Shown one piece after another: positions 11,981-47,449 of a DNA stretch of 64,000 nt. This DNA is from Ulota crispa (taxonomy: Eukaryota > Streptophyta > Bryopsida > Orthotrichales > Orthotrichaceae). Position 1 is the stretch's first letter, and each line of letters starts with the position of its first letter. Both the position numbers and the translations under genes were made by a program. Below the pieces are notes generated by a model, which worked only from the letters and a program-made list of their open reading frames with translations, did no database searches and had not been told where the DNA came from. The DNA lies in NCBI GenBank assembly GCA_963920765.1, contig OY987248.1, forward strand, positions 19,254,539 through 19,318,538, written 5' to 3'.

Positions 11981-11996
11981 TAAGGTGTGCACCTTA
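11981..11996. repeat. Palindrome P1 (TAAGGTG family)
   Basis: TAAGGTGTGCACCTTA: perfect 7-bp arms around TG. First member of the clustered palindrome family. Confidence 0.75.
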
Positions 11997-12074
11997 ATCC
12001 CTAAATATGGCTTGTTGTTGAGATGGGGTATGCGTTCGCAAGCTGAGCTTTGCCATGAACGATTATATGAATTA

Positions 12075-12098
12075 GAATTAAGGTGGACACTTTAATTC
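12075..12098. repeat. Palindrome P2
   Basis: Arms GAATTAAGGTG and CACTTTAATTC (one mismatch) around GA. It also starts the first unit of a 197-bp tandem duplication. Confidence 0.75.
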
Positions 12099-12133
12099 AA
12101 TGGATGGATTTCCTGAAGCACTCCAATCCTGAG

Positions 12134-12155
12134 GATTAAGGTAGCCTCCTTAATC
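12134..12155. repeat. Palindrome P3
   Basis: Arms GATTAAGGTAG and CCTCCTTAATC meet directly, with one mismatched pair. Confidence 0.72.
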
Positions 12156-12274
12156 TAGCGGACTTCATTGTTCACACTGATCCATCCTTTGAATAAAAGA
12201 GCCCACCATATTCCAAGAACAACATACCACCCTCAGTTGGATTTGTTTCTTTGTTGAGGCCTATATCAACCAAA

Positions 12275-12294
12275 ATAAAGTGGGTACCTTAATT
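12275..12294. repeat. Palindrome P4, degenerate
   Basis: AATAAAGTGGGTACCTTAAT-type sequence, the drifted partner of P2 in the tandem duplication. Confidence 0.45.
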
Positions 12295-12330
12295 CAATAG
12301 ATAGAATTGTGTGACAACCCCAAGCCCTTG

Positions 12331-12352
12331 AATTAAGGATACCTCCTTAATC
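12331..12352. repeat. Palindrome P5
   Basis: ATTAAGG and CCTTAAT arms with six to eight bases between; the partner of P3. Confidence 0.6.
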
Positions 12353-12391
12353 TAGTGGACATGGAAGGTGAGACGATTCCATCTTCTACAT

Positions 12392-12407
12392 TAAGGTGGC
12401 CACCTTA
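12392..12407. repeat. Palindrome P6, perfect 16-mer
   Basis: TAAGGTGGCCACCTTA is a perfect palindrome with no spacer. Confidence 0.8.
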
Positions 12408-12956
12408 TTTGCAAAACGTCTCCAACCTTGCTAAGCTATGTGCACATGTCAGCCATCTCAGAGTTGCTGTTAATGATGAAGTTGTCTAATATGAAATTTA
12501 AACCTCCATGCAAATCGTCCAAATTGAATCAAAAGTCTCGCAATGAAAGTAAAACATTCACGTTCTTAAACGTTGAGGAATGGAATAGAGTATCTAATGG
12601 AAAACATCATCTTGTGCAAGATGTCTTTGTCTATGCCATTCATGTACTGAATTGCATCAAGTTTAATCAAGTGTCCAGAGGAGTATGACTAGTCATTGTT
12701 CAACCGCACAAAAGAACAATTATTTTCCATAGACAAGGATATCGTGGACATCAATGCTAGCTAGGCCTTCATAGGAGATTCGGTTGACTCGTCAGCCTTG
12801 TATTTGCTTGTGCGCCTCTCAGAGTTAGAGTCACACGTCCCTATACTTGGACATGACATCATAGCTTGCAAAGACAAGAATTCCTACTTATAATTGACGC
12901 TAAAATGTAGAGACACAACTATTTTTGAGGCTCTCCTGATCAACACAGCTGATTAA

Positions 12957-13976
12957 CATTTAAACTACAAGGAGCTGAAGGCAGCGTGGACAGGGTTGAC
13001 ACTTTTGGATTTCATAACGGAGATGTTCAAGGAAGAGTCGGACTTGGCGGGCCTTATATGCGACGATATGGAGAAAATTGTAGCAAGAGCGAGAAAATTG
13101 CCTCCGAAAGTGATCTTGAGTCAACCAAGAAAAGGTGCTGGCAACACTGCCGGAGGTGCTTTGCAAGGTCCAGGTGCAGCAGCAAGAGGATTGCATGGAC
13201 CACCCAAATGAGTGCCCAAATCATTGCCTAAGAAACCAAGGTGGAAACCGAAGTCCACTCCCAAAAATGCCTCCGCAAAATCAAACGACGACCAAGACAA
13301 CATTGGCAGCCCCCGCAACCACGACATATTGGTTGCACGCAATCCGGATAGCACAATAGCAACTGAAGAGTGCACAAAGAGATTCAAAGACTTTGAATAA
13401 GACTTTGGCAAGTACTATCCATTTGGAGATGCGGAGGTCTACAGCATGGACGTCAACATGGTGGACATCGCGCCACCGAGCTTCATTGTGCGTGTGTTAG
13501 AAGAAGCAAGGGTGGCCACTGTCATGAACCAAATGCTCCTTCAAGTTAACCTGACTTAGCAATGCCTCTGCATGCATCTTCAGGGGTGCACCAAGAATCC
13601 CACGAGTTGAGAGCAAGTGAAGGACGGCCAATTCTATGCTATAAATGGTCAACATACAGTGAAGGTTGCCCAATGACTGCTTCTCAACATTGCACTAGAC
13701 AAGAAACTGCAAGTGAACTTGCTGAAGTGGAAAGCTCAAATAGTGTGGGACGTGGATGCTTGGAAACTCAAGGCAATTTTGGAATACTATAACCAGTCAA
13801 ATGCAATCAACCCATTCAAGCCCACATTTGCAAAAAACGTAATCCACATTTGGCGTATTTGGGAAGACATGGGGTGTCCTAAGAGAACACGCCTCAATGC
13901 CACAAATTCTATTCCTGAATTGGCAAAAAAGCGAGACGCATGGGCAATAAGTGGACCCTCCAATTCTTCAGTGTAA
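12957..13976 (+). pseudogene. ParB-like (NGQH) protein remnant
   Basis: One frame stays readable for 340 codons with five in-frame stops (13209, 13398, 13557, 13608, 13674). Where I can guess the former residue the stops fit Trp, Arg or Gln codons changed by C-to-T or G-to-A. It reads LLDFITEMFKEESDLAG near the start, a basic Pro/Lys-rich middle, then DGQFYAINGQHTVKVAQ (NGQH at 13644-13655), KWKAQIVWDVDAW, LEYYNQSN and IWRIWEDMGCPKR. The xxNGQHxxxAA pattern resembles the ParB/sulfiredoxin-like and DGQHR folds. A conserved-looking charged and aromatic protein without stops must have existed. Function is not known. Overlapping frames on both strands here are shadows. Confidence 0.5.
13644..13655 (+). 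other. NGQH motif (ParB/DGQHR-like)
   Basis: Codons AAT GGT CAA CAT follow FYAI and precede TVKVAQ. In ParB-like N-terminal domains the comparable loop (G.HR..A) binds nucleotide or DNA. The match is short, so this is a pointer, not proof. Confidence 0.4.
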
Positions 13977-14008
13977 TATGTATTTGGATTTCAGCGACTC
14001 GGGATGTT

Positions 14009-14030
14009 AATTAAGGTGTGCACCTGAATT
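14009..14030. repeat. Palindrome P7
   Basis: Arms AATTAAGGTG and CACCTGAATT around TG, one mismatch. It lies in the non-coding gap after the NGQH frame. Confidence 0.75.
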
Positions 14031-14119
14031 CCTGTCTTTGGAGCTTTCACTTGAGGAAAGTACGCTAATCTTCATAAATACGTAATTGAAATTTAGTTTA
14101 TTTGGCTTGTTGACAACAA

Positions 14120-14139
14120 ATTTAGGTGCCCTCCTAAAT
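14120..14139. repeat. Palindrome P8
   Basis: ATTTAGGTG and CTCCTAAAT around CC, one mismatch. Same gap as P7. Confidence 0.65.
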
Positions 14140-14156
14140 GTGCATATTACTAAAAC

Positions 14157-15587
14157 CTCCTGTTCTTGCAACGATTCCTGGCCTCAATGATGCAGACGTT
14201 GTCCTCCATTTCTACTACACAAAACAAAAACATTTTGAAGGATGACACAATTAAATGGTTGGATCACAACAAGGTGAAGGAACTATGGTCCGTTGTTTGT
14301 TCATGTCCAAGTTGTTGGAGCAAATGGGAAGATTTTTTTGTCAAGCAGAGTGCCAGCGACCTCATTTCGGCAGACACTAGACACCCAATAAATATGTCGC
14401 ACGGCTTTTGACCCAACTCCACCTCTGTGATGTCAATCTCTAAAAATTGGTTCAAGTGTGTTGAATCCCTCATGCAGAGGGAGATTGAAAAGTTGGTATT
14501 ATACCTCTTGAACTAGTTGGGCAACCTTGGCAAGCCCGTCCCAATGTACCCAAAGGTGGTACCTTACATCTCCAAGGCAAAGGCAAAGGCGCAGCACACC
14601 TTGTTGGCATCAAAGTAGTTTATCAAAAAGAGGATGAAGCGCAGAGTAGTTGGTGAAATCGAGAAGGTGACAGTGGGAGTTCACAATCTTCTAGAGCCCA
14701 GGACGGGTACAAGATTGGACAATGCCCTATGTGATGTACACTCAAAGAATTGGAGGACCTTCAAGAAGGCCCACAAAATCTCCGAGACAACAATGGCAAA
14801 TTTGATCGAGTCTGCTAGACCACGGCACTTTATCAACTTCATGGGCAGGAATAGGAAAGGTAAAGGCAAGAACCCAGCTTTGTTTGAAGAAGCACTGCAC
14901 CAAATGCTTAGAACTCCTAGCCAGTACGGCCTCAAGAGTAAAGTAGGTCTTTGCAAGTTAGTGAGAAGAGATTACGTCACATCTACAAGGCAGATGGTCA
15001 CAGCCGGAAACTTTGCTCTGTTTGAGGACCTGACAAAGGCGGAATTACAAACACGGATTGGTAACAAATGGACATCCATTCTGGACTTCCGCTTTATTCC
15101 CAAGAACATTTTAGGATCAAGCCTTGACTCTCCTTTCTACCAAGACTTCTTGAAGAAGCTAGAGGACTTCAAACTTTTGAAGTGGCATGAGACAAAGGTT
15201 TGGATATTTATTTGCAATGATGTCCACTAGGAGCAAGTGCAAGCTCTGTATGCGAGGAAGCTGGCGACAACTCACCAGATGCCAATTGAAGGGTTCTATC
15301 ACCCGGATCAAATAGAAGGATTCAATAGCAATTCTAAGGTGAAGGACAAAGTAGTGACTATCTACTATATTGTGAAGGCAAGTTAGGACGTACCAACTGT
15401 ACCAAAACAATTTTTGATGCAAGAAATTGCTGTCATATACCAAGGGGAAGTACTGCTACTATGTGGGGAATTGCAAATGGAGACATACATTTGCATGCTG
15501 CAAGTCGTCTCAGCTCCTTACAAAATCGTCCTCAACATTCTTGGAGGAAGGAAGGTTATGCTTGCCTATCAAGTACATCAGCAGTAA
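14157..15587 (+). pseudogene. Unidentified protein remnant, 477 codons
   Basis: A single frame is readable from about 14157 to TAA 15585, with internal stops at 14409, 14514, 14616, 15228 and 15384. Four of these five are TAG, which suits Gln or Trp codons hit by a transition. The largest open part (14634-15230, 198 codons) includes MGRNRKGKGKNPALFEEAL and IGNKWTSILDFRFIPKN. After 15228 it continues ALYARKLATTHQMPIEGFYH. From about 15410 a neighbouring frame reads better (KGKYCYYVGNCKWRHTF, with Cys residues like a small zinc-binding patch), so a frameshift or splice is likely. I do not recognise the family. It is probably an exon of the same gene as the NGQH frame upstream. Confidence 0.45.
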
Positions 15588-15600
15588 CAACCTTTAAGTG

Positions 15601-15626
15601 TGAATTTAGGAGGTCCCCTTAATTCA
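15601..15626. repeat. Palindrome P9
   Basis: 26-bp inverted repeat with GAATTTAGGAGG and CCCCTTAATTC, three mismatches. It starts the first unit of a 77-80 bp tandem duplication. Confidence 0.65.
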
Positions 15627-15677
15627 TCCATCAGTGCCTTATTAGTATTACAGTTGCCATGTTTTGTGACCACTGAG

Positions 15678-15707
15678 GTTGAATTTAGGAGGTCTCCTTA
15701 ATTCAAC
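15678..15707. repeat. Palindrome P10, 14-bp arms
   Basis: Arms of 14 bp (15678-15691 and 15694-15707) around GT with a single mismatch; core TTTAGGAG..CTCCTTAA. The inner base pair is A-T where other members have T-A, so both arms changed together. Confidence 0.8.
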
Positions 15708-15850
15708 ATTCAGTGCCTTCTTAGTGGTTTGCTTGCCTTACTCTGTCATCAAACAAATTGGTTTGTTTATGGGTAAGTTGATAGCAACGAGCCCGACTAT
15801 GAGAAGCATTCAGTGACGTTGCATTATATGACACTGTCTCTTGCATGTAG

Positions 15851-16672
15851 ATGTTGAGAATACATGTGTATAACTTTGTGCATGAAGACGACATCAAAGA
15901 CTATCGGAGTCTCATACCTTTGGAATTTACTCTCAATTACCATGACTTTCTCTATAAGAATCTACCAAAAGAGGATGAAGAAATGTACCAAGGAGTCATT
16001 GAGAACAAGCACAAAGCAGGTTCCTCTAGTTTGCCTTCTCCGCTGTCAAATGAACTAGTGACACCCGTTGCAGAAATTGAGGGTCCTCATCACGGCCAGG
16101 TAGTCCCCATAGCTAGAAAAAGGAACTTTGATGTTGTCGCAAACGCTGAGAAATTGGAAGTTGTTGCATTGGAATGGCGATTGAGGCTTGCAAAGTTACG
16201 GCTTGAAGTTGAAGAGGCGGAAGGAAAATTACTCGCTGGTAGGCTAGAAAACACAAGGGAGAAGGTGCCATCATTAGGGGTGCAAGACACCATCAAAACA
16301 CTGAGTAGCACTAAAGGCATATTGGCGCGTCCTAAAGAAACCCTCCTTGTAGAAGGTCCCGTTGACAGCATTGGCAATGATCATGGAATGATCGTCGGTC
16401 TAAGCAATGTGGCCAACAAGTTTGACGCACATATTGAAAATGCAATTCTTGAAGTGGACATGGTCTAAGACGTCGGGATGGAACAAGAAACACAGAAGGA
16501 CACGACTCTTGAGGATGCAACAGATCTTGCAATAGTTGCAGAAGTGGCTTCCCTTACGGACGCTGTACCCCAAGTTCACAAAGCTGAAATTGCGGAGGCG
16601 GCCACACCATCTTTAGCTAAAGATAATGTGTTAGCCCAAGGTGAGGTTTGGGCCAATGATGCGTGCCATTGA
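15851..16672 (+). pseudogene. Unidentified coiled-coil protein remnant
   Basis: One frame covers 273 codons with a single internal stop (TAA 16466). It begins LRIHVYNFVHEDD after a likely splice acceptor (TGCATGTAG at about 15850). A charged heptad-like segment follows (EKLEVVALEWRLRLAKLRLE), and the end is acidic and Ala/Val/Thr-rich. Nothing in it names a family. Placement suggests another exon of the 13-18 kb gene. Confidence 0.4.
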
Positions 16673-17122
16673 GAGTACAAGATGCTATGCTCAAATAATG
16701 ATGTAGGTCGCAATTTCAGAAGCATAGGCAACGGATGCAATGAAAGTCAATAGTCTTGTGGTACCTAATTTGTATTCCACTTGATGTTTCTGTTTCTGCC
16801 AGAACTATGTCCTCATTTCTTTTTGGTCATACTTGTAGCAATCTATACTACTGCATTGAGATTGGAGGAACAATATTGTTGTTTTGCGATGTCCATTGAA
16901 AGTACATGTAAACCAATGAGTTGTATGAAGTCTTTGCATGTGAATCAAGGTTAAGATGTCAAATTGGTTCAATAACTATTCAAATGGTTAGGGATTGTTT
17001 GGTCAAGTAGCTGGGTCCTTGAATTGCATAGTCTGCAGATGCCATTGTATATGTCTGGACCTATTTTGCCTAAAGGATTGTCCGCCCACGCTCAGCTGGA
17101 CTCGCAAACTATCCTACATGCT

Positions 17123-17146
17123 AGATTAACATGACCACCTTAATCT
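17123..17146. repeat. Palindrome P11
   Basis: AGATTAACATG against CACCTTAATCT, three mismatches over 12-bp arms. Non-coding gap between remnant exons. Confidence 0.55.
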
Positions 17147-17407
17147 GACAAACTAAGAGTAAGGCAACCTAGTAGAATTTTGGTCTAAAGTGCTTATATC
17201 TCAGGATTCCACCACCTTTAGTGTCAGGTTGCTCACGTATTCTTTTAGGTAAACTTCATATACCACAGTGGCTTTTAGCATTGATGTCATTTGAAGAACT
17301 TAAAATCTGGTTGCGTTATTGTTGAGACAATATCAGTCTGCAATGTTTGATTTTGGACTAACAATTTCACTCTTTGTAACCCAGAAACCACCAATAGTAA
17401 TGCTACA

Positions 17408-18166
17408 GTGGACAACTTGCGGTTCACCAACATTGATAATCCCTCTAGTGCCAATACTGGCATTGAAATGTCCACTCTGAACTCCCAGCCAGATGCAATC
17501 CACAAGAGTTTGACGTATTGTATAGATATTGATGAGGCTAGTTTGTTGACAAACTCTGAGGTGGAAGGAGCTAAAGTGCACAAGGGCAACTGCATCTTTA
17601 ACAACATTATACAAGTCCACGCGTGTGTTGAAAGTGGGATGGACAGGCAAGAGGAGGATGCAAGAAAGCAACTTCTGGATACTTTAGTTGATGTCACTAT
17701 AGATAAAGCTGAGAAGGTGGAGCTGAACGAAGTACCCCACGATAAGGAACGGAGGGAGGAAATACCGGTCATTGATTCAAAGAGCAAAGACCAAGCGGTG
17801 AGGGATGGGGAGCCTACACCTACATTTCAATCACCCGGAGATGAGCACTTTGTCCTTGGAATCTCCGTCACTATTCCCATTGGAGAAACCCATATAAGAC
17901 GGGTATGGTCCTCAAGAATAAGCTTTTGAAGGCACAGTATAATGGGGAAGCGGCACTGATTGAATGTGAAAGTCAGTCTCAAGGGGTCGTAAAAGGGGGG
18001 GTACCAAGTCCATGAAGATTGGCAGAGGGCATTGCAGGTGAAGGACCAAAGAAGAAAATCAACAGAGTTTACAAAATAAGGGTTGAGCAACCTAAGGTGC
18101 TTGCCCTTGTACTACCAATGACCACTTGTATCATTGCTAGGAAGTACATGCGCTCCTCCAAATAGT
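17408..18166 (+). pseudogene. Unidentified protein remnant, two frames
   Basis: 17408-17929 is open for 173 codons (MDNLRFTNIDNPSS at its start, acidic and hydrophilic), preceded by a possible acceptor at TGCTACAG. From about 17900 another frame reads GMVLKNKLLKAQYNGEAAL and ends near 18166 after LPMTTCIIARKYMRSSK with one stop between. A lost splice or frameshift would join them. The family is unknown. Confidence 0.35.
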
Positions 18167-18290
18167 AATGACAAGTTGCTGAATTTGAGTTGGGCTTGAA
18201 AGAGTTAATCTTACTATAGGTTATGGAGTGTGGGAGGTCTTGCTAGGTTTGTACAAGCAATAACCCAAGAGCAGTGTCTCTGAGAATATG

Positions 18291-18312
18291 GATTTAGGGG
18301 ATCACCTAAATC
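18291..18312. repeat. Palindrome P12
   Basis: GATTTAGGGGATCACCTAAATC-type sequence with one mismatched pair and no spacer, in the gap after the 17.4-18.2 kb frames. Confidence 0.7.
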
Positions 18313-18439
18313 TGGTTATACATTCTTCTGGTGGGTACGCGCTTTGTTGAAGTGCATGAATTTCCTAGGAAGAATGCAGTTGATATTGTCACCTTTATCA
18401 TGTTTTTAGCATGGATCATGTCGGATTTTTGTTTTCGCT

Positions 18440-18800
18440 CGTTCCGGACGCCCGGATTGAAAGTGATGACCGCGGACCTAAGCTCATCATGAGAATGTGA
18501 AAGTATAATGCATCATGGAGTCCTCAAAAGTACTCTCTCAAGAAGGACAGACCCCAAGTTGATGTCACCAGCGTTAATGCTATGCAATGTCAATGCATAT
18601 GCTTGTTACATACCAAGTTTTGTGATCTGCAAGAGTACGTCGTGATCTTCGTATGCTGGATGGCAATTCTTTTTAGAAAACAAGAAGAGTAGTTTCCCTA
18701 TGATATTATGCAAGTACCCCTCCTATTCATGGTGTGGAGGGTGTAAGTAATGCTTGGCATGAGACACAGAAGCAGTACCCACTTGCTTGCAATAGCGGTT
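18440..18800 (+). pseudogene. Possible DNA methyltransferase fragment (WHETQKQ)
   Basis: A readable stretch (ARIESDDRGPKLIMRM, then WSPQKYSLKKDRPQVDVTS) is followed, after frame changes, by NAWHETQKQYPLA at 18749-18784. WHETQKQ resembles WHPTQKP, the signature between the catalytic and SAM-binding parts of beta-class N4/N6 DNA methyltransferases. No DPPY-type catalytic motif was found around it. This is weak alone and gains weight only from the second methylase-like locus at 45.7 kb. Confidence 0.28.
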
Positions 18801-19810
18801 ATTGCTTCTGACTGAAGGCAAGTGCACAAGTGCATCGCATGTACGTTGCTTGAATCTTCTTATGTTTTGAAGTGCTTGGTAGCATTGTCCGTGTACTAGT
18901 GCAATGGTGCCTTCAATGATTGATAATTTAATCTACATTTGAGTTTGAAATTGTTTATGTTGTCATTGCACAAGCTGCTAGTGAAGGCCTTATATAGAGG
19001 GATCTAGCAAGCTCTCCTAAAAGACGCCTCATCATTTTTTACCTTAATGAGGTCCTATGCAACATTCAATATATTTAGTTCAAATTTTTAAGGGAACCCC
19101 TTGATCAGTACACAAGAGTGCAAGAGAAGTTCCAGTACGTTAAACTTGCCCTCATAAGAGCAGCCACAAAGGAGGCCTATAGGCTTGTATATGCTCGCCC
19201 ACTGGTGCGCCCTTTTTTGGAGCAGCTATCATCTCTTGCACATGTGGGTGTGTGGACACGTATGGCACAAGAAATTGTTGTTCCCATTGTTTTGTGGTTG
19301 TTTGAAAGCTGTAAAGCTGCCTTTGTGCTTTCCCAGCAACATTGCACAGCCTTGGCAAACGGGAGGGGAGGTGTGCTGTGAGTTGAAAGTGGGGCACCGA
19401 GGCAATTTTTTAAAGAATTGGAGTTGCTTTGGGGAATGACCTGCGGGCTGAATCTGGGGGGGTTCATCCCAACAAGTGAGAACACCCTATTGGTGGACAA
19501 CAGCTCGATGAAATGCGTTTTGAATCCACGCTAGAGCTGCTTGTTTCCACATCCGTGGAGTAAGTCAAACAACAATTCCTGCCACATAGAGGCAGTGCTA
19601 GGGGAGGTAACAAACATGTGTAGGTCTGAGCTTTCTATTCCCCATTTTGTTGAACTACTACTAGAGCAGGACAAGAACAGAGTGACGAGTCAAAATCCAC
19701 TTGATCTCAGTAGTACCTTAGACCGGATTGCAGAAATATCTCCCAGGTATGTTAGACCTGGAAGTAGTGCCTCAATTTATACACTCTGATTGTTGCTGCC
19801 TTAGTGTGCT
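18801..19810. other. Mixed stretch with short open frames, unidentified
   Basis: An open frame at 19118-19381 reads QEKFQYVKLALIRAATKEAYRLV and is GC-rich. Another at 19541-19789 has no motif. Antisense frames overlap the first. They could be further exons of the degenerate gene upstream, but I cannot support that. A degenerate AAGGG..CCCTT inverted pair lies near 19088-19105. Confidence 0.3.
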
Positions 19811-19836
19811 CAAATTTAGGAGATCGCCTTAATTTG
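19811..19836. repeat. Palindrome P13
   Basis: CAAATTTAGGAGA against TCGCCTTAATTTG, two mismatches over 13-bp arms. Last clear member of the cluster. Confidence 0.65.
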
Positions 19837-20990
19837 GATGCCGTCCGCACACCTAGGAACATTTTGTGTACAACTCTATTTACATATTGTTGAATAAATA
19901 CCACCTTGTCGTCAAAGATGACTCAACCTTGTGGAACTTTGCAGCATCTTGATCTCATTTAGCTTAGCACATTAGGTTTGGAAAATTGCAAGCACCTATT
20001 GTACTTAGACTTGTTATTGGAACACTTATGAATTAACAAGGTTTGCTAGATTGTCTAGAGCCTTGCTTCTAGCTTAGACGCTCATATTTTGAGTTTGAAG
20101 ATGGTGTTGGAGGCCCATATTTCTAGGCCACAGAGACATTCATCAAATTTCCATACTCATGAGCATGATTTTTGTGTCACTATGTTGGACTTGACGATCT
20201 CAAGAAGAACCCGACAAGTCCAAACTTCTTATAGGCGCAAGCTCACTTGAATTAGGTGTGCTGTGGAGTTTTTTGGCCGAATCATCCAAAAGCAACAGCA
20301 TTACATTAACATGTGCCCCAAGCAAACAAAATGGAAATTTTAAAAGTTCGATGACCGCGTTATATTCAATTGTCAAAGTGCCTATTCATGTAGTTATTGC
20401 AAATGTTCAGCACTTCAGCTATATTCTCCAGTCTCATATGCTTTATTTTATATTAAGGTGCTCCACTTGCATTTCCATCTTAGAAATTCCAGTGCAAATT
20501 CACCCCCTTGTCAATGGATAGTATTCATTCACTTTGTATGGCAAAAGTCACTTTCATCGGCAAGTGACAAATTACTAGAGTCCTTTTGTTTATGATGTGG
20601 GAGTCTAACTTTGCAACTAGGGTGTTCTCCAAAAGTGCTTGAACATGTTTTTAAACCTTTGGAGGTATGCCATCCTACAACCCCCATTTTTTATGAAACC
20701 CACCAATTCATATGTTATTTGCCAAAGCACAATCCGTTGGTTACACGCCTTTGTTCATGTCTAGGGTGAGCTCTGTATTCATAGTGGGGAATCACCGCTA
20801 TAAGGAAGAAGCCTCATTCATTTATATTAGACCAAAATTTGAGTTCAAAAATGGATTTGTTGGAAGCTGTGGAAGCGAAGAGGTTGTGGGCATATCTTTT
20901 CATGTTAAACATAACATTTAAAAAAAATGAAAAGTCCCACTTTGTAAGCATTGTCCCATTTTAATGAATATGGCATTAATAATAGTATAA
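19837..20990. other. AT-rich stretch, nothing recognised
   Basis: Open frames at 20258-20521 and 20712-20921 lack motifs. A half-palindrome (ATTAAGGTG) lies near 20453. Confidence 0.4.
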
Positions 20991-21120
20991 CACTACAAGG
21001 AAACCATGGTTGAATCTATAAAAAGTTGACAAACATTGTGACCTAATCTATAGTATACTGTAGATGAGGTCATAATCTTTGTCAACTTTTTGTAAATTTG
21101 ACCATGGTTTTCTTGTAGTG
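20991..21120. mobile_element. CACTA-type MITE, 130 bp
   Basis: It begins CACTACAAGGAAACCATGG and ends CCATGGTTTTCTTGTAGTG, matching the En/Spm CACTACAAGAAA terminus. TAA flanks both sides as a 3-bp target duplication, the CACTA hallmark. Nearly the whole element is one imperfect palindrome. It codes for nothing and would depend on a transposase elsewhere. Confidence 0.85.
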
Positions 21121-21499
21121 TAATAGCTAGCTGAGATTCAAATAACTTCAAAACTTCAGAACTAGGTACAGGGCATTGTACATTAAAATAGAAAACACTA
21201 AATATGGGGTGATGGCATGATCAAGGTATCCAAAAAAGATTGCTTAAGTCTAATTTGGGCTTACCTATGATACTTTTCATATTAATTACGTCCTACTAGA
21301 TAGTGCTATGATATTAAAGTTTTGGCAAAAACATGCTTATACTTGTAGATTAGTAGAAAGATTTGTTTATATTTTAAATGATGAATGTTATCATGTCTAA
21401 ATTAGTGATTTTGTGAGAAGTTTTGTAACTCTCTCATTTCATCAAAATGCACTAAAGGACTTATGGGGAGTTGTCACATTGGGCTGCTTGTCTGCCTAC

Positions 21500-21850
21500 C
21501 CGCATGTACGCCCAAAGTATTTGATTGAGGTCACGGTCCGTTTGATGAAGTCAACTCATAGTTAACTTTTAAAAATTGTACAAATTGATAAAAAAAAAAA
21601 AAAAAAAAAAAAAAACTTACTTTGTGAATGCTAGTGACATTCATTGTTGCTAACATGAAGTCAAAATGTGGATTCAAAGCCATATCACGTCTTAAAAATG
21701 AAAAATGATAATTTGATTCTTCCATTTTTAGGTCAAAAACCCTGAAAATGGCCTTAAAAACACAAGAGGACGGATATGTCCATCCGTGCTGTCTTTTATG
21801 TCTGTCCACTTGTGCTATCCTATAACCGAAACTTGCCCAAAGTAACAACC
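21500..21850 (-). repeat. Dispersed repeat R2, copy 2
   Basis: Reverse-orientation relative of 7010-7305, with CATCAAACGGACC, CTTTGAATCCAC and GTGGACAGACA in the same order on the minus strand. A run of about 26 A (plus strand 21590-21615) sits where copy 1 has a shorter T-rich segment. Confidence 0.5.
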
Positions 21851-22669
21851 ATGAATTGTGGACTACAAGTTTGTTTGGTAGGATTTAGGAAAATGCATCT
21901 ATAGTCGTGCAAGCTTCTATGGTACACAAATTTAAAGTGTATTAGTCCACACATTATTATAATGACTTGTGGACTTGTGGTGAATTATTTAAACAACAAT
22001 TTCATGTGAGTTTTTCCATGCCCAATAAAGAACATTAAAAATTTGTAAATTTTCTTTTTAAGTGGCAAAAACATACACATATACTTGTTTCTAGGTGCAC
22101 ATACAATCAAAATTATTAAAATGCTAATAATTTACTTAGGGAGCCCTTACAAATTACAAGCCAATAAAAGTCCGGATTAGGACATTTGGATTCTGATCAC
22201 TTTTATGATGTGAAAAAAAATCACAAAAGCCCTTTTAATGTAGGGTACACTGTTTAAATGAATATCTTAACGTAATGAAAGCTTAAGAAAAATATCTTTG
22301 TCATCACTTGCACATTCAAATTTTTCCCTAAACATAAATAATCCAAATTCACTAATACAAGTGAGACAAGGAGATTATATTGGAATACCCTGATCGTTCC
22401 AATTTATGACATATGTCTTAATTGTATGTCTCATCACTCACGTACACAATGTGGCAAGTTTGATGATTAGAATCAAGTCGAATATGACAACCATGATACT
22501 AGGCATTGAAGCACATAATTGTCCATCCGCTTGCTTTGTTCATCTAATTATGCGCTCGTCTGTCCAATATTGAATTAGGATTCACGATCTTTTGACATAG
22601 TAAATATGGGTTTACTTTGTTCACGTAATTAACTACGTGTGAGCAAGTTGTTTGTTTCCCTGGTAGAAC
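21851..22669. other. AT-rich stretch, nothing recognised
   Basis: No open frame, repeat or motif that I can support. Confidence 0.4.
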
Positions 22670-22672
22670 TAA

Positions 22673-37514: not shown

Positions 37515-37720
37515 TGGGCACATACATGTGGTGTAGTGGTAAGAGTTCTTTAAACTCATCCATGAAATCTAAGATTCAAACCTTGGTGGTGATGCTTAGG
37601 TCGTGTGTTGCCTATATAGTACTTGACAAGTGACAACATCGCGTGAAGTGTTCAATGACATGTGGTAAGTACCAAGTGGCAATTGGTTTATTTAGAGGGC
37701 ATTTTGTCACATAATAATTT
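37515..37720 (+). mobile_element. tRNA-derived SINE (candidate)
   Basis: TGGTGTAGTGG at 37529-37539 matches the A box and GATTCAAACC at 37573-37582 the B box of a tRNA-derived promoter. Plant SINEs begin with the same GTAGTGGTAAGAG wording. The following 130 bp are unrelated to tRNA, as expected of a SINE body. No clear tail or target duplication was found. Confidence 0.5.
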
Positions 37721-40134
37721 TTAAATGAACGATGTTTTTAAAATTTGTAAGTATACTTTATTATTTAATTTTTTATTTATAAAAAGAACAAGAAATGAAT
37801 AACAAATGATTAACATATAAACTACAGATAAACAACAAAAATTAAAAAATAAACCCTAGAAAAACAACAAATCTTTGCTCAAAAATATTTTGGATAACAT
37901 AGTTAACAGAAATAAACAGCAATTTTCAATTAAATTTTTGTTGATTTCAATTTTGATTTTTCTAATAATGTAACATAAGCTAAAGTTTGTCACTCAATAT
38001 TGTAGTATCAAGCTATTTATCATTCATAATGTTTTCTATTTTATGATCTTTCAATAAATCAATTAAAAAAAAAGAGTGTGTTTTTTTTAAATTGTAAATT
38101 GAAAATATACAATGTTTTGCAATTGTGTAATTCACTAGGCAATTGGTGTAAAGCATTTCAACAAGGATTTTAATATTTCATTTTTCATTTATTAGCACAT
38201 ATAAAAAATTGCCAATTTTTAGTCTTATAAAATTTAATTTCACATGAGTTTTATTTTTGGCATTTTCATCCATCAAACTATTATTTAAAATTCAGTGATT
38301 TATAGTCTTTTTGGTGTTAAAATTTGAGCTTACAATTTATTTATTTTTTTGGAGATAATGTACCATTGCTTTTGATAATTTTGAAGTTGTGTACTTCTTT
38401 ACTTTTTCAGGTTTTAATGCTTTAATTGACTTTGAGTTGCAAGAATCCGCACTTGAAGCATCAATTTCAACTCTACACATCCACTTTCACATTCCACCTC
38501 TTAAATACAATTGGATACTAAAAATTTATTAAAGATTCACACTAAAAAAACAAGGCTGCATTTTTTTTTAATTTTTAATTTTTTACTTTGCATTTGTAAG
38601 TTGAAAATGTGAAAGCTAATTTAATGCCACATATTGCATAGTTTTATTATTATTTTAATTTGAGCTTATTTTATGATTTTTTTGTATACATTTGCAAATG
38701 AATTTTGTTAATTTTGTGAGACCTTTAGTACAACATCTTTTGTTTTTGCAAAACATCAAAAATAGCCATGCTAGCAAACTCAAAGTCCTTCCATGGCATT
38801 TCCAATATTTGACATGGCAACTTCCTTTCATTACATAGAAGTTGGTAGTGCACTTGACATAACAAATTCCTTCTGCCTTACAAATATTGATTAGCCAGCG
38901 CACATGATGTAGAATTGTAGATCAATGCCACTAAAGCTCAATTGCTTGAGTAGTTGGAATTATTTGGTAGTTATCAAAAATATAAAAGTATTGGAATTAG
39001 AAGCTCAAGTGCATCCACAAAGCCCATTGGTCTCACCAAAATAGCAATAACTTCTTTAATTTTTGAATTTTTTGACACATTGCATATAACAAAAACCTCT
39101 AAACAAGTAATGAGCAAGATGAGGTATGTGAAAAGAAGTTTGAAAAAGCAAAAAAAAAGTTGCAAAACAAAAGTAAAGGATTAATAATGAATGATGAGAA
39201 ATTGGAAATTATTGTCATTTAGAAGAAGGTTATCTCCATTTGTTTATTTTATTTGCAATTCAAACTCTTCATGTCTATAAGTGTTGCTATCAACTTGCCA
39301 TACATTGGTGAGATGAGCATGAACGAAAAAAAAAAAAAAAAAAAAAACTTGTTATTTGGTACTTCTACTAATAAAGGACTTCATGAAAGTATTGCTTAGA
39401 AGAGGGCTATTAAGCGCACGCTTTATGAATCCATAAATTTGGAAGGGGGCAATGGTCATTTGGAAGAAGAAGATTTCAATGCTTGCAAAAAGCACAATAT
39501 TGAGGACAAATTTATGCAAACCAAGAATCAATTCTTGAAGCTCATTCTTAAGATATATTGTCTCCTTTTTTAAGGTATACATGTTCTTTAATAATTAGTA
39601 AATTTGCATGTAGAGATGTAGAGTTTGATTGCATGGAGAGGCAATCTTTCATAATACAAATAAATATTCTTTTAATTTTTTGTAAGCATAAAAGCATTTT
39701 CTAATGCTAAAAATGCATGTCCCATACAACAAGATTTAATAGGCTGAATGATAAATTACTTTTTATTTCTTTGAAAATAAATGTTTAAGATATAGATTAT
39801 GTGGAGTACAAAAAATAATTTACTTTATATTTTATTTAACATTGTATAACCAAATGGAAGGTCTTGATATCATTATTGTGTGGAGTTCTTGAATGCATCA
39901 TTTTATAGATATGTTTTTAGTATATGAGAGAACAAAGCATTCAAATAATTCCAAATCTTATCAACTAGCAAAAAAACAAAAGAAAAAAAGAAAACTATTC
40001 ATGAATTTGTACAAAAGATGCAAAAAAGAAAAATCTCTTGCTAATGGAGAAAAATTTCAACATACAATCGACGCATCAAGAGAAAAAGCCTCAATTGCTT
40101 AGAGAAAATTTGTAAACCAGGTTTTGCCTTTTTT
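37721..40134. other. AT-rich stretch, nothing recognised
   Basis: Short frames only. 39329-39350 is a run of about 21 A. Confidence 0.4.
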
Positions 40135-40790
40135 TTTCACAAAACTCAAGAAACAATATTATAAGGGTTCTTTCAAGGAAATGGTGAAATAAGTCTTTTG
40201 TTTTGTGACTAATGTCACTTTCAAATAGATTTTTATTTAAAAAGATTTAAATAAAAGGACAACAATCTTATTCCCAGGTTAATTACATTTGTTTGCAATC
40301 CATCACTTATGCTCTAAACACAGTGTATGAAGTCATAGTCCTATCTAGTATTCTAAAAGATGGTCAAATAGTCTGGGCAATAAGTCAAGTTTGGTCAGTT
40401 TGACTTATGCATGCTCTGTAACCTAGTCAAATTACCAAGAAAGTATTTGATTACATAATGCACATAGTTATTTTATTATTCATTTTTATATTTTTTGATC
40501 AATAAATCCAATCACATACTCATAGCTTCTTTTTGAAGCCTATTTAATTGTGCCTAATGTGTCAGTTTGCTACAACAATTTATCTCAGTTACGCAATTTA
40601 TCTCAGTTACGCAATTGAACTCAATTTGCACAATCAAATAATTTTAGTATTCTTACAATTTTATTTGTATCTCTAATTCTAAGTAATCAATCTAGGTTTT
40701 CACACATTAGTACCTACATGCACAATATACTAATTTTTATATGTTTGCATGAATTGCTAAAATAATGTTTAATATAAATCTAATTCATAC
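40135..40790 (+). repeat. Dispersed repeat R4, copy 2
   Basis: Counterpart of 33665-34330. It carries an extra short tandem (ATCTCAGTTACGCAATTT twice, at about 40582-40615) not present in copy 1. Confidence 0.6.
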
Positions 40791-42230
40791 CAAACATTGT
40801 CTAAAGCTACATACACAACTATATTTATATACTATGGGTAAAAATACTTAAAATATGGCAATAGAATAGGATCTTATGAGCAAATCTCTATTATTGTGGA
40901 CTAATTGACCTAAGATTGCAAGATTTACTCTATGGTTGTGGAATCCCTAAATTGAACATCCTACAAATTTCCTAATTTCCAGTCCTTTATCAAGTCCTTA
41001 ATTAGGTTTTCACAAGATCAATTCTATTGCTTTTGATAGATTGCCAAGAATTTTGCAAGCAGCAATTTGTACCAAGATGGTTGCAAGCAAATTACAAATT
41101 GAAAATTTGAAAATTTGCTACTTCATCTTGGCTTTACTACCAAATCTAAATCATGGCTTTGATGCCTAAAGTTTTGTTGTTGGTCCCTGCCTTCCAACAA
41201 CGCTAGAATGCAAGCCTTGAGCAATGAGCTTGTGAGCACCAAGCGGGAAGTCTATGAGCCTAGAGCATTGTTTGAGAATTTTCTAAAAATAATATTTTTA
41301 TTTGTGTTTTTATTTAAAATTAAGATTTAGCTAGAAGAACTTACTATATATCTTATTTCTATAATAGACTTAGTTCTATTAATTGGGTAGTTGGGTGTCA
41401 AAATGATAGAATGTAAGGCGGTTGAGAAACTAATTAATAACTAAACTTTTTGTAACCAAATTTTCTACTTTACTAGCCAAATGAGTGCTCAAACCTCACC
41501 CTCGAGAAGTAAGCGCAAGCGCAACCAAGTTCTAATAGAAATGGCAATTGAGCTAAACACAAGGAAATAGCACAAGGGTGGTTTTGGTTGTAGATTTCCA
41601 ACTAAAAGATGCCTTCCAAGCAATGGATCTTTACAAATGGTGTTATAACATACAATGATGAGCAAAAATGAAGTAACTCTTCTAAGGAAACGAGTATTAA
41701 ATCAACATGAGCTACTTGAAAATAGAGATTGAAAATTATCATACCTCATCATGGGGTCCCACATACCCTACTGCTTGGTTGTTAATGACCTCCATTTCTT
41801 CTTGGTCTTGACGAATGATCACAACACTTTAGTGAGTTATTTGGGCAACACCCACTAGTGGACCGATCTTGGTTACGGATGTGTGACAAATGATCACAAC
41901 ATCAACCGGTGCCGGGAAAGGAAATTAGGAATGTCCTTAACTATTGTTAGTCCGCTAAAATAGTATCAAAATGACGTAAGTGGACTTCTGATCTAATTCA
42001 CATGCTAGGTATGACGGGTTCGCTATTCAACATACCAGATTATGATGCAGATTAAAGAAATTCAACAAAGTATCTTGTGGTTTGCAGAATTCTAAGAATA
42101 ATTATCAAATTCCTAGGCCTTGATGCCTTCGGTTAGAAAATCCTCCCTTGAAGACAAACGAGTTGGTGGAACATTAAAGTTCTGCCTTCTCCTTTCTTTC
42201 TTCCTTCACGTTTTTTGAGTTTGGGAGGGG
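40791..42230. other. Stretch without recognisable gene
   Basis: No motif-bearing frame. Base composition rises in G and C from about 41750 onward. Confidence 0.4.
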
Positions 42231-43250
42231 TTCATGGGTCTGAAGGGGCTCTGGAGCACCGGAGCGTCTGGGGGGCCGGAGGTTCGGAGCACTGGGGGTA
42301 CCCTAGCTGGTACCTGGTCATACCCGACGGCCTGGCTGGTACCCGGGGCGGCTGATACCCAAGGCTGGATGCGGCTACGAGGTAATCGACGGCAGAGTGC
42401 AGAGAGGAGTGCATGACAACAGGTGAGGAACGTGGAGGTCCGGCAGGTCAGTGGGGAATTGTGGTGAGGGAAATAGAGGCTCCGGCTGCTGAGATCTAGC
42501 TGGAGGTTGAAAGCTTGGAGTGAACACTAGGGGCCCAGACTTCGGGACGTGAGAGGGAGACCGAAGCTTCGGCTGCTGAGAGCTGTAGCTGTGGAATGAG
42601 AGCTCGGGGTGAATGCTGGAGCTCAGGCTTCGGAATTGAGAGTGAACAGAGGCTACGATTGCCGAGAGCTGTAGCTGGCGGAGTGAAAGCTCGAGGTGAA
42701 CATTTGGGGCTCAGACGGCGGAATTGAGACTGAAACAAAGGTCCAAACTTAGGATTGAGAATGAAACCTAGGCTACAGCTGTCGAGAGCTTAACTGGCGG
42801 GGATGAGAGGTTGGAGTGCACATTAGGGGCTCAGAATTGGAATTGGGGGTGAGACAGAGGTCCTGACTAGTGATTGAGACAATGCCGGAAGCCAGCTGCA
42901 GGGTGAGGACTCGGGGCAAACACTAGGGGCTCAGACTTCGGAATTGAGAGGGAAACAGAGGCTACGGCAGCCGAGAGCTTAGCTGAGAGGTTGGGGAGCA
43001 TACTGGGGCTTAGACTCAGAATTGAGAGTGACCGAAGATCCTGACTAGTAATTGAAACAATGCTAGGGCTAGCTGCAGGGAAGGGCTGAGTGATAGGGGC
43101 GTAGACTCAGAGTGGAGAGTGAAACTGAGGTCCAGACTCGAATTTGAGAGTGAAACAGAGGCTGCGGCTGCCGATGGATGCTCGAGGGAAGCTCGAGGGC
43201 CTCAAAGCTCCAAATCAGTGAGAGGCGGTTGATGATGGTGGATGGTTTGT
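42231..43250. repeat. GC-rich island with diverged minisatellite (about 7 units of 80-120 bp)
   Basis: From about 42487 to 43200 the sequence repeats, with drift, a unit built of GAGAGCTGTAGCTGG, a GAG..CTCGGGGTGAAC segment, GGGGCTCAGACTTCGG, AATTGAGAGTGAAACAGAGG and CTACGGCTGCC. Seven units can be marked off. The preceding 42231-42400 is even more GC-rich, with repeated GGTACCC words. Open frames on both strands (42232-42416, 42496-42738) come from composition. The island stands out sharply from its AT-rich surroundings. Confidence 0.65.
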
Positions 43251-44525
43251 CATGCCACGTGCCAAGAGAGTATGTGAGCGAGGCTAGGCCTCAAGCTGTG
43301 AGACTGTGTTAGCAATGTGACTTTTCAAAGAGCTTGCCAGGGGAATCGAGATAGTTGGTAAATGCTAAGCTAAAAAGATTTCTCAGGAATTGCTAGGAGG
43401 GCTTGTTCTTGTAAAGTGGTGGAATTTTGGTAACAGAATGGTAAGCTAAGACTATGCGGCAAAATGCTTCTTCTAATCTAATGAGGTGTAAGCACAAGAC
43501 TAAACTAGGACTTCTAAGAAGTATGGAAAAGCGGCATCGCCAGTCATAATCCAACTCCCTAGAGGTTAGTAAGACCAAATGCAATTGACAACCAACGCTT
43601 GGCCTCTACCTCTAGCTTGAGGAGGCCAACCCCCATTAAGCTCAAAGACTCTTAACACGTGCAAGGAGAGGAGCTCTACTAAGGTGAGACACAAAAAAGG
43701 GCCAAAGGAGGGGAATGTGATGATTGATTACAATGGAAAATGATGAAGGGAAAAATGGGGTACAAATGATAGTGATGGGAATGATGGTTTGGGAGGAGGC
43801 GGGCCTCCCTTTATACATTTGGAGGAGGACACCTTGGCCCTCTATTTAGGAGATCCATAGATCCCTTGAAATTTACCTAAAATTTAAGAAAAATTCAAAA
43901 TGAATGAAATCTAGATGAAATTCCAATAAATTTTGGAGCGTAGCTCCAGACAACAAACGAACGGTGCCATTAGATTCTTTGGCCCAAAAATAGCCAGTTT
44001 TGGTTATTCACACTTCCAATTCCAAGCTACAAGGCATCAAGAATCTTCAATGAAGGGTTAGGGGTGGATGGATGAAAAACCCAAAAGTGGGAGTTCATCC
44101 CAAATGATGAGATTGACTTTCTGAGGTCTTCTGAAGTTGACGGGGAGTTGGGAAGCACTCATTGCTTCTGTCAATTGAACTCCGGATGGTTGATTTCTTG
44201 CAATTTGTCATTACACTAATTCTCGGTTTTAGCTCGATGTTGTTGTTAGAGATCTTGCCGCTATAGAAACGACTTCAAACTTGGGGAAGTGTCTTGAATC
44301 CTTGAGAAACTTTTCCAAAAATTTTGGTCACATTTTACTGCCCTTTGTCAACCTCTTCGACCGGGGTTGACCAGTAGTCTAGCAGAGTTGACTGCTTGGA
44401 ATCACGCCCTCTGAGAAGCGAAAGGTATTGGAAACCTTGGGTATAGACGCACCAAATGATATAGTAATTAGAAATGTGAATTGGTAATGTGGCCCTTGGC
44501 CATGGAATTCTACTAATCTACTCTT
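43251..44525. other. Stretch without recognisable gene
   Basis: Moderate GC, no motif-bearing frame on either strand. Possibly remnants of an unidentified transposon. Confidence 0.35.
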
Positions 44526-44726
44526 AAACTAACCTTCTCTAATTAGGTTAGTGGGGATTTTTAGAGGGAATCCCAAGCTCCATGTAACATTTCCTAAACT
44601 AACCCTCTCTAATTAGGTTAGTGGAGATTTTTGGAGAGGATCCCAAGCTCCATGTAACATTTCCTAAACTAACCCTCTCTAATTAGGTTAGTGGGGACTT
44701 TTGGAAGAAATCCCAAGCTCCATGTA
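44526..44726. repeat. 70-bp tandem repeat, 2.9 copies
   Basis: Units begin at 44526, 44596 and 44666 and contain AACTAACCCTCTCTAATTAG, TTAGTGGGGA and AATCCCAAGCTCCATGTA. They are over 90 percent alike, so the expansion is recent. Confidence 0.85.
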
Positions 44727-44961
44727 GGTGTGTCATTCAAACTAGCTAAAAACTACTAAATCTCCCTAAATCACTTCTTATGACTTACCATATGGAGGGG
44801 GGTAAATAGCGTACTGCTAACCATTTGGTCTAATTAATCTAAATCAACATATATGGCTATTCCACTTATATTAATGCAATTTCAAAGCTACGTAAAATGA
44901 AAAATAAATTTAGGACATCTAGTGCTGAATCTGGGACTCTCACAGGCATTGGATGAGAGAC

Positions 44962-45231
44962 CATGGGCATAGGATGGGATGGATCATGGGCATGGGATGG
45001 GATGGATCATGGGCATGGAATGGGATGGATCATGGGCATGGGATGGGATGGATCATGGGCATGGGATGGGATGGATCATGGGCATGGGATGGGATGGATC
45101 ATGGGCATGGGATGGGATGGATCATGGGCATGGGATGGGATGGATCATGGGCATGGGATGGGATGGATCATGGGCATGGGATGGGATGGATCATGGGCAT
45201 GGGATAGGATGGGTCATGGGCATGGAATGGA
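44962..45231. repeat. 23-bp minisatellite, about 11.7 copies
   Basis: The unit combines GGGATGGGATGGATCAT and GGGCAT and is almost perfectly repeated, with variants only at the edges (AGGATG, GGAATG). Because 23 is not a multiple of three and the unit has no stop in any frame, all three plus frames are open and translate to a 23-residue repeat rich in Gly, Met, Trp, Asp and His. The frames spanning 44953-45350 are a by-product. Confidence 0.92.
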
Positions 45232-45707
45232 ATATAGGGCTACGTAAAAGAATTGTGATTAGTCAAGAGCCAAGGGGCAAAGTGATGAATATGGGCTTTA
45301 GGTGTGAAAAGATATATTTGATGGAATTTATTGAATTTTTTCCAACTTGAATTTGAAATTGAGAAAGAAAAGAGTGGAGAGGGAGATGAAGAGGCAAATT
45401 GATTTTATATTATTCCATGGAATGTTTTTTAATATGAACCAAAGATCAAGCTAAGTTTGGATAGTTTACAAATAAAATTCAAAATGCAAATCAAATTTCA
45501 TGTTAATTTTTTTGTAGGGACTTTCTCCCGTGATGGCCCTTTGCCGGGACGGCGCGTACACGTGCCCACTAGTAATAAAATATTAGACCTAATACCACAG
45601 AATTGTAGGTGCACCTATAACCGTGTGAATCTAGTTTTTTTTGTTGCATTGACTATTACATTCACGTTGTAACCAAAAAAATTTGAGAATATTTTAAGAG
45701 TGTGATC
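45232..45707. other. Stretch without recognisable gene
   Basis: The frame 45457-45672 has no motif. It may hold lost exons of the methylase-like remnant that follows. Confidence 0.35.
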
Positions 45708-46577
45708 TTATGGCCAAGATGGTGGAGATTGATATTAATGTTGAGCGTAACAACATCTTCATGAACTACACTAGGGCAAAATATTTAGCACTGAGTGGGA
45801 TGATTCTTTGGAGAGAAGCTCGTGAAAAAGACCCATGATATTACCATCTTTTGATTGTAGCAGTTGACAACTGCTTTTGGAGATGTTGTGTTGAATTGTA
45901 TTGCTTCAACAGGTCAAAATTCAATTTCAAACTACTTCCTTTAATTATATTCTTGATTACTTGTTTTATTTTTGATAATAACCAATTCCTTTTATGTTTT
46001 GTTTTTGTAGGAGCTGCTATTATTGCTTGTCATGCAATAGGGTGCCATAATCTTGCTTTTGAACATGACCTTGACATTTTTGGTGCATTACTCCAACCAC
46101 GAATCTACACTATGCCAAACAAAGGACAGATGGAGGCACACGCTACTGTTATTTCTACATAGGATTAAGATGTTGTGACAATTGTTCCGTGAAAGTTTGC
46201 ACGGAAGACAAAGCCATGTGAGTAAGTTTTCATTTTCTCATTTTCATTTTAACATTGATTTTTTTCATTTCATTAAACCTAATTCTTTGTATTTTTTCTT
46301 GCAGCCATTTTAAATTGATATCCAAAAGTATTGTTACTTCCACAAATGGTATAGACATTTGAACTAGCCCATTAGGATGATTTTGTTATGCCATCTTATG
46401 CATTGAAGATGGCTGATGCATATTCTAGATTTCGTTATACTAAGCCAAGATCTAGTTTTGTCACTTATGATCCAGATTTTGTTGAGTACGTATATAGATG
46501 ACATGGCTTCTGTGGATGAAGATTACGTAGAGGCTTCTAGCACTTCAGGCTTAGCTAAGGAGTCTAATATGATCTAG
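45708..46577 (+). pseudogene. Decayed DNA methyltransferase-like gene, C-terminal part
   Basis: First block 45710-45911 reads MAKMVEIDINVERNNIF to REAREKDP, a stop, then YYHLLIVAVDN and VELYCFNR. After a likely intron (about 45912-46011, AG/GT start and TTTTTGTAG end) the reading is GAAIIACHAIGCHNLAFEHD and LDIFGALLQPRI. Placed together this resembles the C-terminal SAM-binding part of beta-class N4/N6 DNA methyltransferases (an EKP..LL..LI helix, a DPF.GSGTT loop, then the GR..IG.E.D strand). Phase across the intron does not fit by one base. A further exon after TTCTTGCAG (46305) gives DDFVMPSYALKMADAYSRFRY, then after a frame change an acidic tail ending at TAG near 46575. The catalytic DPPY-type part is not in the window. 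Confidence 0.42.
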
Positions 46578-47427
46578 CATTTCAACAAACATGTTTGTAT
46601 TGATGTGTCTATTTTATTTTGATTTCATATTATATAGATTTTTGTATTTTATGACTAAATCTATTCTTTTTGCACTTACATGATTGTTCAATTATTTCCA
46701 ATTCATGTAAACTCTAAGAAAATTTGATATATGAATGTTCAAATTTTTGTCTTTATTGCATTTGTTCTAATGGATTTTTCACCATACACCTTGTCATTGT
46801 ATCACGTTTGTATCTTAGACTCCACAGTCATAGGTACTCTACCCTAAAGAATCCCTAAAATTATTTGCCCTTCATATGCTCATAAGCTCATGAGCTCATG
46901 AGCTTATGCATTCATGCTCATGTTCTAGCAACCATGCTCCCACAACAATATCATTGTACCAAACAAACTTAATCTTTGTAGAAAACAAAATTTCAAACAT
47001 AATAGGTTCTATAAATAATTTTTCCAAAAAAATGATTGGAATGCCCAAAATAGAGATTGTAAAGTATGTACTTGGAAGTATTGATACCCTCATGCATGTT
47101 TTGTTGTTCAAAGAACTTTGCATAATACACACTAAAATTGGGCTTTTGATATTTTGAATCATAGATATTTGATTCTTATGCAATCACAATCTAATATTTC
47201 AAATATTGATTCATAAAAACCAAAATCCTAATTTTGGTGAATTATTTTATATTAGATTTGTGGTTTTACAAGAAAATTGATTGAAGAAAGTTGGTGATGA
47301 GTTTTTGAGATAAGATTGCATGGATATGGAGGAAAAATTCATATGCACATTTTTCATGTTAACGCCGTATTCATTAAATTGGGAAAATCAGTTTCCCAAG
47401 TTGTACTCACCTTACACCTAGAGCTTG
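46578..47427. other. AT-rich stretch with a 28-bp perfect palindrome
   Basis: 46881-46908 is a perfect palindrome (CATAAGCTCATGAG followed by its reverse complement). 47205-47340 is a diverged copy of the arm of the long inverted repeat at 49.6-50.5 kb (AACCAAAATCCTA, TTTTGGTGAATT, GATTGCATGGAT). No gene. Confidence 0.5.
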
Positions 47428-47449
47428 GTTTAAGGTGGTCACCTTAAAC
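47428..47449. repeat. Palindrome P14, perfect 10-bp arms
   Basis: GTTTAAGGTG and CACCTTAAAC around GT. This is the only member of the TAAGGTG family found outside 11981-19836, and it lies about 850 bp downstream of the methylase-like remnant. Confidence 0.8.

Follow-up and report, generated by a model that had tools for sequence, protein, structure and literature searches.

ParB-like proteins joined to a DNA methylase part are already reported in algal transposons: in Ectocarpus, the 21.5 kb element Sola1-1 encodes a protein with ParB-like and N4/N6 methylase domains, proposed to act on its own transposon by binding and modifying it, and similar accessory proteins are described in DNA transposons of green and red algae (PMC12477816, accessible portion); self-binding is proposed there and that portion gives no binding sites. 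The ParB-CTPase fold and its phage methylase fusions have been surveyed (PMC12704722, accessible portion). In excerpts of work on Sola transposons, the target duplication is 4 bp, with Physcomitrella named (PMC10741241), and that of Sola2 is likewise 4 bp (PMC3627910). Here we describe a decayed multi-exon gene, and the dyad-symmetric sites (dyads) in and around it, in a 64,000-nucleotide stretch of the Ulota crispa genome (GCA_963920765.1, contig OY987248.1, positions 19,254,539 to 19,318,538; the window). We give a probability of roughly 0.5 to the reading that this is an accessory gene of a Sola-like DNA transposon, the product of which is predicted to bind the dyads of its own element.

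The gene is like the algal Sola1-1_Ec32 proteins in that the same two domain kinds are named, the transposon is large with 4-bp duplications, and self-binding is proposed; the likeness is one of description. It is unlike them in lying in a plant genome, in its added NIF-type domain, in introns with copy-specific dyads and in its degenerate methylase motifs. Phage ParB_N + N6_N4_Mtase fusions (L086 and 35 viral relatives) have, by eye, the same motif order of a GQH/GHQR-type P motif, motif IV and a C-end motif I; however, the main gene has no hhalign profile similarity to them. As in ParABS, clustered dyads lie beside a gene for a possible binding protein, whereas no ParA was seen, PF02195 did not match and the sites are spread through introns. 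The putative element resembles Sola-type transposons and their miniature inverted-repeat transposable elements (MITEs) in its 4-bp target duplications and terminal inverted repeats, but no transposase was identified among open frames judged by eye. Our literature text search, largely without subscription papers, turned up no published account of a plant gene with such intronic palindromes.

A decayed multi-exon gene and its relatives

Between 12.6 and 19.7 kb, the window contains a single decayed member of a gene family with several exons. The reading frames of this block are interrupted by stops in the window frame listing, and its G+C content is 42-43% as compared to about 30% in most neighbouring DNA. 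In the Ulota genome (275 Mb, 157 contigs searched), there is an intact-looking copy at C7:436-444 kb on the minus strand (the C7 copy), in which exons A, B, C, D and NIF are all open, with lengths of 394 (A, stop to stop), 489 (B), 211 (C, to the end of the piece), 246 (D) and 273 (NIF) amino acids. Its exon ends are splice-like: exon A stops at GTAAGC and exon B begins after TGCAG. Exons A, B, C and NIF of the C7 copy align to the window in the same order by tblastn, and the parts of the window gene are as follows.

12621 to 13952, plus strand: exon A, decayed, with an NGQH-motif domain that is ParB-like by motif only; tblastn with the related protein P0003 41.6% over 454 amino acids, E 1.6e-103, and with C7 exon A 44%; internal stops
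14139 to 15578, plus strand: exon B, decayed, with methylase-like motif spacing by eye and catalytic motif IV replaced; tblastn with C7 exon B 47% over 480 amino acids, E 3.6e-135, and with the related protein P0005 44%, E 6e-125
15851 to 16465, plus strand: exon C open frame of 205 amino acids; tblastn with C7 exon C 50% over 34 amino acids, E 1.6e-7
17351 to 17926, plus strand: open frame of 192 amino acids in the place of exon D, assigned by order only, C7 exon D having no tblastn match here
18971 to 19672, plus strand: decayed exon with a NIF-type (PF03031) phosphatase domain; PF03031 match at 19079-19378, tblastn with the C7 NIF exon 50% over 234 amino acids

A frame with a WHETQKQ motif at 18.76 kb, which the preliminary description had counted with this system, is not supported: no C7-copy exon matched there, and the frame was not scanned against family libraries.

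The sole formal family match of the gene is PF03031 in the last exon, with 28.3 bits (E 1.6e-6) in the window and 50.8 bits in the C7 copy at a cut-off of 21.8. The catalytic pair of NIF-type phosphatases is DxDx(T/V). The pair is incomplete here, reading LDLNHV in the C7 copy and FDFNHI in the C5 copy, where the second Asp is replaced by Asn. In exon A, we found the motif INGQH[TS]V, which may resemble the ParB P motif; Q, H, V and A are invariant in 10 sequences and the arginine of the G-x-R/H-R-type P motif is replaced. The end of exon B, VLNIFGGRKLMLACQ, resembles methylase motif I by eye, and the catalytic [DNS]PP[YFW] motif is absent, the matching place (placed by eye) reading IDFRN/VDFRF in P0005 and the C7 copy. 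Because no profile similarity reached either exon, we call the gene ParB-like by motif and published precedent only and methylase-like by motif only, and both identities stay putative. A match of P0003 to trimethyllysine dioxygenase (NCBIfam, E 7e-4, 19 bits, cut-off 268) was rejected as noise. Solved-structure profile searches of the gene gave chance matches or none, and AlphaFold models had no usable fold (predicted local distance difference test scores of 35.9 for exon A protein P0002, from 4 sequences, and 33.2 for exon B protein P0005, from 2 sequences).

The exon A piece has 36 genome matches, window included, and the NGQH frame of the preliminary description is real; the exon B piece has 15 matches in 14 places, again with the window. 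The palindrome-bearing subfamily consists of 16 places (the window and 15 further copies). Of the remaining exon A places, 15 (L038-L052) form a second subfamily of the exon A/B gene, with open frames up to 345 amino acids and, across the 48 kb of these loci, no dyads save 2 weak matches. Outside Ulota, the exon A profile found 4 metagenome proteins with 43-46% identity to the C7 copy and the exon B profile found one with 50% identity; the window exon B piece by itself found no homologous protein. These metagenome relatives extend past the exon end by anything from a few residues to some tens before they stop, and such ends would fit intact exons before an intron. Searches of viral contigs, prokaryote genomes and phages gave no relative. 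Descent of the block from a large integrated virus, or from foreign DNA of another kind, would suit both its higher G+C content and its NIF-type domain; the predicted spliceosomal introns and the lack of relatives in viral contigs and phages argue against such an origin, and we consider it very improbable.

Dyads in the flanks and gaps of the gene

The preliminary description had noted about 13 palindromes at 11981-19836 and one more near 47428. A first scan of the window for 20-base degenerate dyads of type ATTAAGGTGNNCACCTTAAT bears this out, with 13 at 11979-19833 and one at 47429; the same scan gave weak matches at 11906 and 47700. The dyads start at 11979, 12077, 12135, 12274, 12332, 12390, 14010, 14120, 15604, 15683, 17125, 18292 and 19814, plus 47429. 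The exact pattern TAAGGTGN{0,10}CACCTTA occurs three times in the window and was absent from 100 shuffles. The plain 7-mer TAAGGTG is less striking, with 18 occurrences as compared to an expected mean of 7.76, a count of 18 being reached in 1 of 100 shuffles. A soft half-site scan gave 12 sites within the 9.0 kb block, as compared to 2 weak matches in 53 kb of the remaining window; thus, the dyad cluster is more than chance. There are 6 dyads upstream of the gene, 2 in the gap between exons A and B, 2 between exons B and C, 2 in later gaps and 1 after the NIF exon.

11979 to 12409, no strand: upstream array of six dyads, of which 12274 was seen in the first scan only; upstream sites are likewise present in the C5, C2, C7 and C1 copies
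14010 to 14139, no strand: two dyads (14010, 14120) in the gap between exons A and B, predicted intron 1; both scans, with splice-like ends in the intact-looking C7 copy
15604 to 15702, no strand: two dyads (15604, 15683) in the gap between exons B and C, predicted intron 2; both scans, and both dyads lie within a tandem duplication of 79 bp
17125 to 17144, no strand: single dyad in the gap after the exon C frame; both scans
18292 to 18311, no strand: single dyad; both scans
19814 to 19833, no strand: single dyad directly after the last exon; both scans

Copy-specific dyads

Dyads cluster tightly with every well-preserved gene copy, which agrees with the earlier view of a decayed, acquired or mobile gene with the palindromes as its likely sites. 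In the half-site scan, at least one dyad is present in 14 of the 16 copies and at least three in 11 of 16. In the C7 copy, there are 4 dyads upstream, 1 in the gap between exons A and B, 3 between B and C, 3 in later gaps and 1 after the NIF exon. In the C5 copy, the corresponding numbers are 3, 1, 4, 3 (one weak) and 1, and the 10 kb upstream hold no dyad except one in a MITE. The window, C7 and C5 copies thus have a common dyad layout (upstream, the first two gaps, later gaps and 3' end) despite having no DNA similarity outside the exons.

The dyads themselves vary from copy to copy. In the C5 copy, they are all one variant, TTTTAGTTGATCAACTAAAA, except for the weak one and small changes; other variants are ATTTGGGTGACCACCCAAAT in the C1 copy and ATGTAGG..CCTACAT in the C4 copy, and usually both arms are changed alike. 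When we counted half-sites on both strands in six copies (so that dyads can count twice), 86 of 157 had their mirror image at the distance expected of a dyad, whereas eight other spacings together gave 3 partners. Site distance averaged 4.05 within a copy and 6.54 between copies, and none of 5000 permutations was as extreme (71 sites in 11 copies, with C5 and C2 pooled as one copy and the C5 sites used; the sites of C10:7.54M (1) and C6:18.69M (2), those of MITEs and the weak C5 site 572769 were omitted). A permutation of arm complementarity was discarded as proof because the sites had been chosen for complementarity. We regard the gene anatomy and the copy-specific dyads as firm. Many dyads lie in predicted introns and mirrored arms also form hairpins, as would be seen if the dyads acted as RNA, in the form of intronic and untranslated hairpins retained because they serve splicing or the control of transcripts. 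However, the inner G/C pair, which is unusable in a hairpin loop, is among the most constant dyad positions (132 G of 142), and dyads occur ahead of the gene, and within MITEs, as well; we consider the hairpin explanation improbable.

Palindromes in MITEs across the genome

There are 863 exact symmetric TTAAGGTGNNCACCTTAA sites and 547 TTTAGGTGNNCACCTAAA sites genome-wide (about 1,400 together), most of them in MITEs, and the palindrome is therefore not confined to the frames of the window as had been supposed. Sites with mixed arms number 40, as compared to about 690 expected if the arms were independent. Around 24 sampled sites, we found a terminal-repeat match (lenient, up to 7 mismatches of 22) on both sides for 17, on one side for 6 and on neither for 1. 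The 15 MITEs that we read closely have ends AAC/AAT...CATATT and an exact 4-bp target duplication in 12 of 15; among the 15 there was no target duplication of 5 to 10 bp at that offset. The outlying palindrome of the window belongs to such an element.

47361 to 47492, no strand: MITE of 132 bp with the 47429 palindrome; terminal repeats, target duplication TGTT

The preliminary description had named, as findings that would overturn it, the lack of a profile match for either family or palindromes with no association to its frames. We found no PF02195 or methylase profile on the frames and most palindromes in MITEs, yet there is clustering at the well-preserved copies.

Candidate ends of the element

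The Sola hallmark of a 4-bp target duplication with terminal inverted repeats is present in the MITEs; among gene-bearing copies, there is one candidate only, C2. In the window, a repeat of the MITE type follows the gene.

20930 to 20977, plus strand: putative right transposon end, MITE-type terminal repeat; repeat match, with the end portion recurring elsewhere in the genome

Of 20400-20977, only the final ~48-58 bases are repeated elsewhere, in at least 40 other places (40 of 225 candidates scored). The distance from the last dyad to the MITE-type right end is 1163 bp in the window, 1254 bp in the C5 copy and about 1230 bp in the C7 copy. Upstream, the C5 and C2 copies share 88-94% identity over at least 24 kb; on the 3' side, the identity ends no more than 2 bases from the end repeat in both and the DNA beyond differs, save for one 61-base match further out that we take to be a repeat. 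In C2, we found a candidate left-end repeat 51.8 kb away with the duplication ATTT on both sides; the left-end pattern has about 1 match per 3.4 Mb on that strand and would occur by chance in 60 kb with a frequency of about 2%. A repeat search found no long terminal repeat retrotransposon ends around the block. The evidence supports a gene position close to the right-hand end of a DNA transposon that has terminal repeats and leaves 4-bp duplications (Sola-like), with the same ends as the dyad-bearing MITEs, and the gene is likely transposon cargo.

Several results weigh against the transposon reading and its ParB-like product. A right-end repeat is unclear in the C1 copy (one match with 4 mismatches) and was not found in the C3 copy, within 1.5-1.7 kb examined at a guessed place in these copies. 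Such repeats have a background of 8 in 198 strand-kb, about 0.04 per strand-kb, and the chance of one within 1.3 kb is about 5% per copy; an unpaired right-end-like repeat of the MITE type is also present at window 9346-9362. Pattern searches found no left-end counterpart near the C5 copy, and no transposase was seen in the stretches read. The copies C6:2.48M and C7:11.67M have no dyad in the half-site scan, and two MITE subfamilies by themselves could explain the two symmetric site types. As for the product, PF02195 (ParB N-terminal) matched nowhere in the genome, even at E values up to 10, with the control positive in 11 of 14 genomes; Pfam gave no match for exon A or P0001-P0004; PF01555 (N4/N6 methylase) gave none for exon B, the junction of exons B and C or P0005; no ParB or methylase profile reached the main gene frames in profile-library scans; and in hhalign, exons A and B had no profile similarity to phage ParB-methylases with both Pfam domains (Prob 0.1 for exon A). 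Finally, segmental duplication is possible because the C5/C2 homology extends so far upstream.

This last point bears on a different explanation, in which a host gene family was duplicated with chromosome segments and is mostly dead, the dyads are sites of a host regulator, and MITEs carry the site by chance or capture. Besides the C5/C2 segment, it gains from the C1/C10 and C7/C6 copies, which are 72-75% alike across 2.4-3.6 kb, from the one copy with open exons and from the open metagenome relatives. Against it, the C5/C2 homology ends at the terminal repeat on the 3' side, the dyads vary between copies, unlike the sites of one host factor, and the copies are mostly dead and scattered. We consider a host gene family a possible but doubtful explanation.

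The second locus and other features of the window

The preliminary description had joined a methylase-like locus at 45.7-46.6 kb to the gene as one system. A methylase-like fragment does exist there, around one motif only, and it belongs to a different family.

45867 to 46164, plus strand: separate methylase-like fragment, with the motif I region interrupted by a predicted intron at 45913-46010; motif and genome matches

The two exon pieces joined over the GT...AG intron give DVVLNCIASTGAAIIAC...FEHD; in a search of two sequences, the joined piece scores 6.3 bits with the phage methylase model, and it has no Pfam match. The piece has 13 genome matches, itself included, and we assign it to a methylase-like family different from that of the main gene because these matches miss the exon A/B places. 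A distant relative, L122 (C8:9152200-9154200), matches PF01555 at E 0.0045 and 17.4 bits (cut-off 26.7) and is a third methylase-like family member. A single element comprising both the 12-20 kb and the 45.7 kb locus would agree with methylase-like motifs in both and a palindrome near both; with the matches of the second piece off the A/B loci and the 47429 palindrome inside a MITE, we consider this extremely unlikely.

Elsewhere in the window, we found a Harbinger-type transposase gene at 50684-51645 (DDE_Tnp_4 4e-13 for 50684-51307), frames at 217-2825 that by eye are Gypsy-type polyprotein-like (reverse transcriptase to chromodomain), and frames at 59434-63367 that by eye resemble exons of an importin-type host gene. 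There are 11.7 copies of a 23-bp tandem repeat with 97% matches at 44962-45230, and 212-bp inverted arms, 98% complementary, at 49595-50531, likely a foldback element.

A predicted self-binding product

If the gene is an accessory gene of a Sola-like transposon, its product would consist of an NGQH/ParB-like domain, a degenerate methylase-like domain and a NIF-type domain, for which we infer ParB and methylase ancestry and self-binding. As a dimer, the product would bind the dyads spread along its element; these sites would lie in introns and flanks because exons cannot hold them. The predicted binding may mark, regulate or protect the element. When the specificity of the protein shifts, the sites of that copy would shift together, and one or two of the site types would persist in the MITEs. 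Carried further, and put forward only tentatively, this would be a selfish plant element with a ParB-and-methylase-derived protein and about 10 dyads of its own through introns and flanks, for loading along the whole gene; each lineage would have changed all of its dyads in concert, a shift of self-recognition code resembling an arms race, with two of the codes kept by hundreds of MITEs. The copy-specific code is readable in the sequence, and self-recognition by an accessory protein of a eukaryotic transposon would thus become directly testable, as would what MITEs gain by keeping the site.

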